DNA of 64,000 nucleotides, taken from NCBI RefSeq assembly GCF_013626205.1, contig NZ_QHJE01000001.1, positions 1,426,001 through 1,490,000 of the forward strand. Reading direction: 5' to 3'. The notes below the pieces were generated by a model. The model did not search any database. It was not told where the DNA came from and was given only the letters and a program-made list of their open reading frames with translations. Source of the DNA: Hyphomicrobium methylovorum. Lineage in GTDB: Bacteria > Pseudomonadota > Alphaproteobacteria > Rhizobiales > Hyphomicrobiaceae. Below, piece by piece: positions 2,767-5,162 of this stretch (position 1 is the first letter of the stretch; the number at the start of each line of letters is the position of its first letter). Made by a program: the position numbers and the translations under genes.

Positions 2767-2874
2767 CGCGCGCTCGCATTTCTGGGGATTAGCGCCATTG
2801 CGGGCGGAGCGCCTGTGTTACGACAAAGCTCCGCCATCATTCCTTCCAAAGGTTCGCTGGCGAATCGCGGGGAG

Positions 2875-4080
2875 ATGACATTGTTCGGCTGGCGCAGGCG
2901 CAGCGAAGGCTTCGAATGGCGTGAATACGTGCGGACCACGGTGCTTGTGCGCCGTGCCGACCGTCAACGCCGGATCGAGGATGCGCGCGCGGCGGCCGTC
3001 GACAAGGTCAAACATGCGGCCGATGCTGGAGCGGAAGCGGGGCGCGCCGGCGTTTCGTTTGCTGGATCACACATTTCCCGGTTTTTTGCCTTCCTCGGCA
3101 ACGTGCTGCTCGATCTCGCAGTCGCAATTTTCTACGTTTCAGGGCGCTGGTTCAAATTCATCGGCTCGGTGATCGCGGACGCATTCGGCGCTGTGTTCGC
3201 GCCGTTGACGCGCTTCCTGCGTGCCAAGGGCGAAGCGGCGGCGTCAAAATTGAAGGGCGTGGGACTGAAGACGCCGCAGTGGTCAGCGCGCATGCCCGCG
3301 ATGCCTTCGATGCCCGACTTTGCGCGCCGTATCCCCTTCAATCCGCAGTATGTGGTTCTGGGGTTGGCCGCGCTCGGCCTGATTTATTTCGGCGGACCAA
3401 TCCTGCGCAGCGCCGATGGACTGAACCTCGCGGATATGTCCAGCGGTGTAAGCACCGGTTCCGTGACGGTCGCGACGGAGATTTCCGGCTCGAGCTTCGC
3501 CGTCAACGGCGAGGTGCTGCGGGTCGACGGTGCGCTGGTGCGCCTCGAAGGAATTGAAGCGCCTGAGACGGGGCAGCCCTGCTACCGCGCGAACGGCAAG
3601 AAATGGGACTGCGCCAGAGCCGCGCGGATGGGCCTTTCTCGGCTCGTGCGACGCAAGGCCGTGACCTGCACGCCGTCCGGTCAGGATGCTGATGGCCGCG
3701 TTCTGGCACGATGCACCATCGGCGGCGATACCGATGTCGCGACCGAGGCCGTGCGTCACGGGTATGTGTTTGCAGTGGGATCGTTCTTCAATTCGTTGAG
3801 CGCCGAAGAGAAAGAAGCGCGCGTCGCCAAGGCGGGAATTTGGCAAGGCAACGTGCAGCGTCCGCAGGAGTGGCGCGATCAGGCGTGGGAAGACGCCAAG
3901 CAGGCAGCGCCGGATGGCTGTCCGATCAAAGGCTTTGTGCGGTCTTCGACGAAGATTTACGCGCTCCCCTGGGCACCTGAATACAACCGCGCGAGGGTTC
4001 GGACGGATCGGGGCGAACGCTGGTTCTGCAGCGAAGACGAGGCCAAGGCGGCTGGCTTCACGTCCTCAAGCCGTTCCTAG
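2875..4080 (+). CDS. Membrane-anchored thermonuclease-like (SNase-fold) protein
   Basis: The N-terminal 150 residues hold a basic start (FGWRRRSEGFEW), a hydrophobic segment (FFAFLGNVLLDLAVAIFYV) and a second one (YVVLGLAALGLIYFGG). These place the C-terminal part on one side of the membrane. From about residue 200 an SNase (TNase) domain runs: VRLEGIEAPE keeps the Arg and Glu of the staphylococcal nuclease active site, and DADGRVLARC supplies the second Arg. The usual DGDT calcium-binding turn is not recognisable. A C-terminal module starting CPIKGFV resembles the small domain often attached to bacterial thermonucleases. Start choice: GGGGAG (2869-2874) directly abuts the ATG at 2875 but lies an ideal 6 bp before a TTG at 2881, so the TTG may be the real start; a GTG at 2815 is less likely. 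Nuclease activity is inferred. Confidence 0.8.
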   Translation: MTLFGWRRRSEGFEWREYVRTTVLVRRADRQRRIEDARAAAVDKVKHAADAGAEAGRAGVSFAGSHISRFFAFLGNVLLDLAVAIFYVSGRWFKFIGSVIADAFGAVFAPLTRFLRAKGEAAASKLKGVGLKTPQWSARMPAMPSMPDFARRIPFNPQYVVLGLAALGLIYFGGPILRSADGLNLADMSSGVSTGSVTVATEISGSSFAVNGEVLRVDGALVRLEGIEAPETGQPCYRANGKKWDCARAARMGLSRLVRRKAVTCTPSGQDADGRVLARCTIGGDTDVATEAVRHGYVFAVGSFFNSLSAEEKEARVAKAGIWQGNVQRPQEWRDQAWEDAKQAAPDGCPIKGFVRSSTKIYALPWAPEYNRARVRTDRGERWFCSEDEAKAAGFTSSSRS

Positions 4081-4107
4081 ACCTGCGCCTTCTCCGGGAA
4101 TGCGGGC

Positions 4108-4198
4108 AAAAAAAAAGCCCACGATCGGGGGAGACCATGGGCCGACTGGAGGATGTTGGCGCCTCATTGGGGGAATGGGGACAGCGCAAACGCTCCAT
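4108..4198 (-). ncRNA. Candidate trans-acting small RNA with C-rich loops and intrinsic terminator
   Basis: On the minus strand a promoter-like pair TTGTTC (4226-4231) and TATATT (4204-4209), 16 bp apart, is followed by a region with no ORF. It ends in a 7-bp hairpin (GCCCATG/CGTGGGC) and nine T residues (4116-4108), a textbook intrinsic terminator. The predicted transcript is about 91 nt. It shows a short AGCG/CGCU hairpin, a CAUU/AAUG hairpin with a CCCCC loop, a single-stranded CCUCC, and CUCCCCC in the terminator loop. Exposed C-rich anti-Shine-Dalgarno motifs are a hallmark of several alphaproteobacterial trans-acting sRNA families. It could instead be the 3' UTR of the gene at 4332-5162, processed or primary. 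The RNA family is not identified. Confidence 0.6.
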
Positions 4199-4203
4199 CA
4201 CGC

Positions 4204-4231
4204 AATATATCGATAGATTGCGGCAGAACAA
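4204..4231 (-). promoter_or_regulatory. Putative sigma-70 promoter of the candidate sRNA
   Basis: The minus strand reads TTGTTC, a 16-bp spacer, then TATATT, with a purine about 6 bp downstream at 4198. A second -35-like TTGACA lies further upstream near 4262 but has no good -10 partner at 17 bp. The call rests on consensus matching and on the terminator that ends the unit. Confidence 0.45.
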
Positions 4232-4331
4232 GATCGCGCCGATTCTGATTCGACGTTTTTTGTCAATCTGTGACGGTTTTACTGTTTGATCGACATACAA
4301 GCCACACCGCCATAAGGCGCTGAGATATCTC

Positions 4332-5162
4332 TTATTTGTGCCATTGCACGACGAACGGAGTGATCTGAACCTCCGAAGAGCCGCTGGCTTTTGCGTATCC
4401 GACATCGGAAACGACGCCGCTAAAGCCCCGCCGCTCTTCGTTCCAAAGAACGAGATCGCCGCGTTGCGCCAGCATCTGACCGTCGGCCCACAGGCGGACG
4501 AGCCCATTATTTTTCCCGGCTGAGTTGAGGATGACTTCCTCCTCAATCCTCACCCAGCGGTCGCGCGGCCAAGTGTTTTTGGATTCGGACCAGCTTGCGC
4601 CTTCGCTCGTGCGGACCTCGACGCCGACGGCGCCGAGACCAAGCCAGGTGGGACGGACAATGAAGCTGTCACCCGGTAATGCGCCGTCCAGATCCGACGG
4701 GGTCAATGCCGTGTAAATGCCGGGTAACCGGCCCGCGTGCTCGAAATCGAAATCCTGCGAGAGCCGCGCGCGATAGGACAGACAGACCGATTTTGCCTCG
4801 GTGAGTTCCGGCGTTTGCCAAAGGAAGCCTGCGCCGTTGCGTCCTGGATTGTTCTCATCGTCAACCGGCTCAAGCACGATCTTCAAGCTGGCATCCTGCC
4901 CCTTGCCGTCGACGCCAACGACGACCGCATTTTCCAGCAATCCCCATTCCCGCGATCCGACGCGCGCCTGAATCTCCATCGGGGTCAGGATTTGACCGCG
5001 TTCATTGTCCAGGGCGAATTGCTTGCCTGCGGGGTAGCGTCCGCTGCACGGCTCAACGTGCTCGTGGCTGAAGAAGCCAGAGCCGATATACCCGACAACC
5101 ATCAGAAGCACGGCAACCCCGGAGGCATTGAAAAGCATGCTCCCGGTCGAATTGTAACGCAT
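4332..5162 (-). CDS. Membrane-anchored protein with a polysaccharide lyase 14-like domain
   Basis: The 276-residue product has a single hydrophobic segment at residues 14-31 (uncleaved anchor or signal peptide). The soluble domain is rich in beta-strand patterns. Blocks such as LPGIYTA, FIVRPTWLG, VGVEVRT and the stretch around NTWPRDRWVRIEEEVILN followed by GLVRLWADGQ match the jelly-roll of PL14 alginate/glucuronan lyase-like proteins as I remember them. Catalytic residues cannot be assigned with confidence, so it may bind rather than cleave polysaccharide. It stands alone, divergent from the gene at 5529, and its transcript would run toward the candidate sRNA. The ATG is the first in frame; GAGG lies about 12 bp upstream. 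Confidence 0.65.
   Translation of the reverse strand: MRYNSTGSMLFNASGVAVLLMVVGYIGSGFFSHEHVEPCSGRYPAGKQFALDNERGQILTPMEIQARVGSREWGLLENAVVVGVDGKGQDASLKIVLEPVDDENNPGRNGAGFLWQTPELTEAKSVCLSYRARLSQDFDFEHAGRLPGIYTALTPSDLDGALPGDSFIVRPTWLGLGAVGVEVRTSEGASWSESKNTWPRDRWVRIEEEVILNSAGKNNGLVRLWADGQMLAQRGDLVLWNEERRGFSGVVSDVGYAKASGSSEVQITPFVVQWHK

Follow-up and report, generated by a model that had tools for sequence, protein, structure and literature searches.

A predicted small RNA gene with conserved C-rich hairpin loops in Hyphomicrobium methylovorum and its family, Hyphomicrobiaceae

Does the stretch between an SNase-domain protein gene and a PL14-like gene in Hyphomicrobium methylovorum, which belongs to a group of bacteria that bud and often use C1 compounds, encode a small RNA of its own, and if so, what would its C-rich loops act on? 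The locus lies in a window of 64,000 nucleotides (the whole stretch of DNA analysed; contig NZ_QHJE01000001.1, positions 1,426,001 to 1,490,000, forward strand). A preliminary description of this DNA had proposed a trans-acting small RNA with anti-Shine-Dalgarno loops, perhaps one that controls growth or C1 metabolism, and, as an alternative, the 3' UTR of the PL14-like gene. The following features were located, in window coordinates:

4108..4198, minus strand: predicted small RNA gene of about 91 nt, start at about 4196-4198 (match of covariance model R1, and fold)
4226..4231, minus strand: candidate -35 element TTGTTC with a CTTG core (located in the window; CTTG compared over relatives)
4204..4209, minus strand: candidate -10 element TATATT (located in the window; relatives compared by eye only)
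4241..4251, minus strand: two GAATC (GANTC) sites directly upstream of the promoter, candidate cell-cycle methylation sites
4147..4197, minus strand: hairpin 1 (P1; predicted fold, covariation in 30 sequences)
4164..4182, minus strand: C-rich loop 1, GUCCCCAUUCCCCCAAUGA (predicted fold; C-run of at least 4 in 65/70 members, a share partly built in by how members were picked)
4116..4143, minus strand: terminator hairpin of 11 bp with the loop UCCCCC at 4132-4127 (fold, covariation)
4108..4116, minus strand: terminator U-run, nine T (sequence)
2815..4080, plus strand: SNase-domain protein gene, convergent neighbour and syntenic anchor (Pfam PF00565, E 1.5e-8)
4332..5162, minus strand: PL14-like gene, upstream neighbour (Pfam PF21294, E 2e-15)

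The 91-nt RNA is predicted to fold into two hairpins at -33.2 kcal/mol (z = -3.27), and an equally good fold was obtained in 2 of 200 shuffles. In this fold, P1 consists of an outer stem (4197-4193/4151-4147) and an inner stem (4187-4183/4163-4159), and its 19-nt loop carries both CCCC and CCCCC. The second hairpin belongs to an intrinsic terminator spanning 4143-4108 (11-bp stem, UCCCCC loop and T-run), such that one of the two C-rich loops is itself part of the terminator. This is the sole terminator of such strength in the 64-kb window (≥ 10 stem pairs and ≥ 7 T), where 0.01 would be expected at the same thresholds based on 100 first-order Markov simulations. The preliminary description had already named an intrinsic terminator with nine T, which is found here with its U-run at 4108-4116. 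It had also listed CCCCC, CCUCC and CUCCCCC as exposed; the C-runs of loop 1 and the terminator loop are indeed open, but the predicted fold pairs four out of five bases in the window's CCUCC (4152-4148).

Plain blastn against 100 genomes (the host's own included) recovered the region from just two genomes besides the host's, each time adjoining the same SNase-domain gene. That convergent gene was used as an anchor in 22 genomes of the genus, and the stretch after its stop codon was read. The flanks of these loci diverge while the hairpins and loops persist (by eye). The SNase-side copy is missing in three genomes (G002, G013 and G005), whose loci (L021, L025 and L026) gave no R1 match at E ≤ 0.1; in these three genomes, the end of the PL14-like gene directly follows the SNase gene (by eye). 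Elsewhere in G002, another two-hairpin C-loop RNA was seen on the minus strand after a Crp/Fnr-like gene (L136, 1501-1596, by eye; R1 E 0.0015, R2 E 4.3e-5), which may be a moved copy or a separate RNA.

Covariance model R1, trained on 19 genus members, was run against 103 genomes from the family, Hyphomicrobiaceae. Matches at E ≤ 0.05 were found in 82/103 genomes and 24 of the 25 genera, with no match in 21/103 (12 of these among the 76 near-complete genomes). At E < 1e-5, matches remained in 68/103 genomes, a count that includes the 19 training members. A structural covariance search in relatives had been suggested in the preliminary description, which held that a lack of conserved loops and terminator would speak against it; the opposite was found, as the RNA adjoins the same SNase-domain gene in 19/22 genus genomes and was matched at E < 1e-5 in 49/81 family genomes outside the genus. 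The RNA gene is probably ancestral to the family. The host's own genome holds one strong copy, and the next match has an E value of 0.12. The five weaker matches (E 0.12 to 2.6) were read and folded, and none carries C-runs in two hairpin loops (by eye), which argues against paralogues in this genome; one of them (L065) has a CGUCCCCCGG terminator. Second or third R1 matches occur in 19 of the 82 matching family genomes, all at E 1e-5 or weaker.

For comparison, 70 members were aligned. Outside the genus, 52 genomes had a match at R1 E ≤ 2.7e-5, and 51 of them were included, all but G126, where the match lies at a contig end. Weaker matches were set aside, except for G026 and G002, which were reached via a search with a further model (R2, see below). 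The weakest of the 70 members (L106, L107 and L108; E about 1e-6) may not be orthologues. A pattern scan of genome contigs gave 23 loci, of which 18 pass R1 at E < 1e-13, including Hyphomicrobium facile DSM 1565; carriers also comprise other Hyphomicrobium and Hyphomicrobiaceae records, some titled only Proteobacteria or Pseudomonadota, and one MAG titled Pirellulales. By bit score, 17 of these 18 loci equal ones already counted (13 of them training members), so they contribute names more than additional evidence; the assignment of the family to Hyphomicrobiaceae rests on such names.

On the minus strand, TTGTTC and TATATT are separated by a spacer of 16 nt, and the promoter given in the preliminary description (TTGTTC-N16-TATATT) was accordingly located at 4231-4226 and 4209-4204. 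The R1 match at the window locus (G000:C1:1430110-1430196) has an E value of 3.0e-18, which is not independent because the window RNA is one of the 19 training members. The model places the start at 4196, consistent with the start near 4198 that had been proposed. Measured against the E. coli consensus, the window promoter is weak and is absent from a sigma-70 scan list; its support is comparative (a conserved CTTG). After exclusion of L059, for which the upstream DNA is too short, 55 of 69 members carry CTTG in the 23 nt beginning at -40 from the model start, whereas thirteen other upstream windows contain it in only 1 to 12 of 67 to 69 members each. Conservation therefore supports transcription from a putative sigma-70-type promoter of the RNA's own, ended by the predicted intrinsic terminator.

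Directly upstream of this promoter, GANTC occurs in the window beginning at -60 in 12/19 genus members versus 2/35 other loci (35 of 51 such loci were compared), an enrichment sought only after the sequences had been viewed; other upstream windows of genus members have it in 0-5 of 18-19. The sites may serve CcrM/GcrA or another regulator. GANTC was seen upstream of the RNA at genus loci L005-L007 and L014-L016 as well, and 5/19 genus members share a CACA...TTGA word at about -79 to -76.

Two mechanical ORFs cross the RNA stretch (3914-4216 on the plus strand and 4058-4546 on the minus strand). No reading frame is kept across the 70 members, an ATG opening of at least 10 codons is present in only 12/70, and member lengths fall into all three classes modulo 3. 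A small protein is thus not supported. The transcript had been described as gene-free, which does not hold for the mechanical ORFs that overlap it but does hold in that no frame is conserved in relatives.

Covariation was assessed in two alignments whose rows are related, such that the shuffle controls overstate significance and the values below are not probabilities. In the alignment of 19 sequences, 98.4% of pair cells were standard and both-side changes were found in 4 pairs versus 1.5 in shuffles; these measures exceeded the shuffles, but further pair types did not (9 versus 9.6). A second alignment (A4, underlying model R2) comprised 30 sequences picked for spread. Paired cells here reached 94.4%, with pairing counts lowered by one row (L019) whose P1 is misaligned; shuffled controls reached 85.9% and slid controls 33.7-42.9%. 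Both-side changes were found in 12 pairs versus 6.6 in shuffles, and the covariation score was 0.337 versus 0.190. Compensatory changes fall in both helices, and RNAalifold recovered the same two helices from these sequences.

Runs of at least 4 C are present in loop 1 in 65/70 members, in the terminator loop in 66/70 and in the linker in 0/70, although these shares are inflated and partly built in, as the members were picked by a model already holding C-runs. Loop 1 commonly reads UCCC...CCCC and the terminator loop CUCCCCC, with CUCC found in the latter in 38/70 members. Counted anywhere in the RNA, and subject to the same selection, UCCCCC is present in 70/70, CUCCC in 47/70 and CCUCC in 17/70, but CCUCC lies in loop 1 of only 2/70, in loop 2 of 1/70 and in the linker of 1/70. 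Given this rarity in the loops, the conserved word is a C-run and not the canonical anti-Shine-Dalgarno sequence.

The genes around the RNA bear on whether it is a gene in its own right or part of something else. The window neighbours were identified by Pfam as cydA, cydB, the SNase gene, the PL14-like gene and a DUF2541-type gene. Upstream of the RNA, a tblastn search with the window proteins in the 18 genus loci whose upstream DNA exceeds 1.3 kb (roughly 1.4 kb covered) found the PL14-like gene, on the same strand as the RNA, at the window locus and four others (5/18). At 13/18 loci, no PL14-like gene was found in this upstream DNA and a divergent DUF2541-type gene is there instead. Beyond the 19 genus loci, 53 others were compared, of which 34 have a convergent SNase gene and 18 a PL14-like gene upstream on the same strand; at 19/53, SNase was absent from the flanking DNA examined and the RNA was still present. 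The 5/18 and 18/53 loci with PL14 upstream are what a 3' UTR, or 3'-UTR-derived RNA, of the PL14-like gene would predict. At 13/18 genus loci, however, the upstream gene points away, so there is no PL14 mRNA to supply the RNA as a 3' UTR, and yet the RNA stays. The kept CTTG element and the 19/53 loci where SNase was not found also argue against this reading. The divergent upstream gene thus contradicts the alternative raised in the preliminary description, which was rejected. This alternative is already largely refuted for the family and we consider it highly improbable, while read-through from PL14 in this genome could add a second source of the RNA.

Alternatively, the stretch might act in cis, as a terminator or an antisense end-piece whose only role is to insulate or regulate the convergent SNase gene. 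Its convergence with SNase in 19/22 genus genomes and 34/53 other loci fits this idea, as does a GGGAG or GGGGAG before the SNase start in 15/17 genus members (by eye, L005-L024), which is complementary to the terminator loop. In addition, when the loops were compared with the SNase start region against shuffles in 17/19 genomes (two showed no N-terminal motif in the DNA examined and were dropped), loop 2 reached p ≤ 0.05 in 4/17 and loop 1 in 1/17. Against a cis role, the RNA is kept at the 19/53 loci without SNase in the flanking DNA examined, and an insulating terminator would have no need of the promoter and 5' hairpin, which are also conserved. We therefore regard a cis element as unlikely, and SNase as a target is a lead only. 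There is strong support for reading the stretch as a stand-alone small RNA gene whose C-rich loops and terminator are conserved: a promoter of its own, an intrinsic terminator, no coding and a conserved structure, features by which trans-acting small RNAs are recognized, were each found from sequence and conservation.

Several further observations concern the neighbourhood. At the 13/18 genus loci, the RNA and the DUF2541-type gene are both present but the PL14-like gene is missing in between. Cytochrome bd oxidase genes (cydA and cydB, by Pfam) occupy 332-2766 of the window upstream of the SNase gene, and a cydB homologue adjoins the SNase gene in 8/19 genus loci; in the others, it was not found in the flanking DNA examined. 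Based on ORFs read by eye for nine of the 19 SNase-less loci, the RNA follows a trypsin-like protease gene at four (L061, L089, L091 and L125).

We consider it reasonably probable that the RNA is a stand-alone, trans-acting noncoding RNA of about 80-91 nt whose C-rich loops pair with G-rich ribosome-binding regions and silence mRNAs. The two hairpins would present C-runs, with the loops as putative seeds. In trans, these seeds may pair with G-rich stretches within or close to the ribosome-binding sites of several mRNAs, and the pairing would block translation, as the anti-Shine-Dalgarno loops of NfeR1 and cuckoo RNAs do. When duplex energies were computed for the loops against the start regions of window genes (53, called heuristically), a dip appeared at -12 to -8, the Shine-Dalgarno position. 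This dip showed no specificity for loop 2, the only loop for which a shuffle control was run: shuffled loop 2 was at least as good at this position (-7.5 versus -7.0), and the non-conserved linker dips there too. The proposal of an anti-Shine-Dalgarno RNA in the preliminary description is hence borne out as regards an independent small RNA gene with conserved C-loops, but not by the pairing scan, which was no better than with shuffled loop 2. Base pairing with Shine-Dalgarno regions is plausible by analogy with known RNAs. Sponge RNAs of the CsrB kind also have equivalent repeated loops, a likeness to the C-loops here, and the RNA could similarly bind and sequester a protein with affinity for single-stranded C (e.g., Rho or a cold-shock protein) and not pair with mRNAs. 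That conservation concerns C-runs in repeated loops and not a longer seed, and that pairing specificity was found neither in the target scan nor in the SNase test, would suit such a sponge. Nevertheless, each RNA offers only two sites, and alphaproteobacterial RNAs with such loops pair with mRNAs, according to passages of PMC10746234 and PMC6234868; we think the sponge reading unlikely. A more specific form of the mRNA-pairing reading, which we put forward only tentatively, is that the RNA is the Hyphomicrobiaceae counterpart of cuckoo/NfeR1: an independently arisen hub that may use two redundant C-run loops against G-rich ribosome-binding sites transcriptome-wide, and that is possibly tied to the cell cycle via GANTC.

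The conserved sequence feature is real, and the RNA is of a known kind in what appears to be a new family. A search of Rfam 15 (4227 covariance models) with window positions 3400-4800 at E ≤ 5 gave no credible match; the sole hit was a chance match to mir-648 at 4579-4642, outside the RNA (20.9 bits versus a gathering score of 84). Loci of 11 relatives yielded none at E ≤ 1. The Rfam check advised in the preliminary description thus places neither the window stretch nor the relatives' loci in a credible family. No description of the RNA was found among the matches listed from the full-text literature, a body that leaves most subscription journals outside its coverage. This work therefore adds a family-wide, structurally conserved small RNA that is absent from Rfam 15, and as a syntenic gene with mostly a single strong copy, it lends itself to easy deletion and testing. 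If the loops act as we infer, then alphaproteobacterial RNAs with C-rich anti-Shine-Dalgarno hairpins use differing loop words, which raises the question of whether a plain C-run suffices for target choice.

Among known systems, EcpR1 (SmelC291) is likewise a stable Rhizobiales RNA made up of two stem-loops, the first of which pairs through a strongly conserved loop (passages of PMC4414408), and EcpR1-type RNAs have been reported from Hyphomicrobiaceae (parts of PMC3927594 and PMC4414408). The SL1 loop motif UCCGCCGCAUCU given in those passages of PMC4414408 is found in 0/70 members, however, and the EcpR1 locus is described there as divK-pleD/rpmG (the rpmG side also for Methylosinus, in part of PMC12403871), whereas here it is SNase/PL14; membership was rejected on both counts. 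Alpha-R8 RNAs (SisA-D of Caulobacter) share a C/U-rich anti-Shine-Dalgarno seed and a terminator, but their seed UUUCCUCCCU is single-stranded and outside a loop, as set out in a portion of PMC12559287, and its occurrence in 0/70 members led us to reject this family too. PmaR of Agrobacterium was compared by description only. Its accessible C-rich loop is needed for target regulation, and C-rich loops are present here as well, but it forms a single spoon-like stem and loop and is described from Agrobacterium and one Rhizobium strain only, within the text available from PMC6234868.

The closest likeness is with the cuckoo RNAs/alpha-r14 (NfeR1, SmelA075/SmelA099) and CcsR1-4 of Rhodobacter, which similarly line up consecutive hairpins with C-rich, anti-Shine-Dalgarno-like loops on variable stems (excerpts of PMC3927594 and PMC10746234). 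The CCUCCUCCC loops of NfeR1 silence ntrB, as reported in part of PMC10746234. According to the same excerpts, cuckoo RNAs carry CCUCCUCCC in each loop, compared with 0/70 members here. They mostly have three or four hairpins and several copies per genome (portions of PMC3927594), as opposed to the two hairpins and one strong copy in the host's own genome. Two hairpins are no bar to membership, since RS0680a of Rhodobacter is described as a cuckoo-like RNA with two stem-loops (PMC3927594, section 2.7). In the sections available from PMC10253847, the CcsR RNAs of Rhodobacter are located after a DUF1127 gene, but none was found in the host's own genome, with no PF06568 match at E ≤ 0.001 (of 14 control genomes, one was positive, E. 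coli). Membership was rejected given the absence of CCUCCUCCC and of a detected DUF1127 gene, and we consider it unlikely that the RNA is a divergent true member of this family (alpha-r14, CcsR/NfeR1).

In favour of membership, model R2 reached CCUCCUCCC-loop RNAs in two other families of the order. Of 397 genomes of the order, it matched 52 at E ≤ 1e-3, with 20 belonging to the family and 32 lying outside it (best outside match 2.0e-6). Ten loci were read from the 32 genomes outside, and 6/10 carry CCUCCUCCC (E 3.7e-6 to 7.4e-5) and resemble cuckoo RNAs. These matches are not claimed as homologues: they may stem from C-runs and a G+C-rich terminator, and they indicate a shared architecture and likeness, not descent. 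In another family of the order, a two-hairpin C-loop RNA was seen 4 nt after an aldehyde dehydrogenase-like ORF (L128 in G379, 1501-1583, by eye), which resembles a 3'-UTR RNA of similar design. In the cuckoo-like loci read outside the family, the terminator hairpin carries a C-rich loop too, as it does in the Hyphomicrobiaceae RNA.
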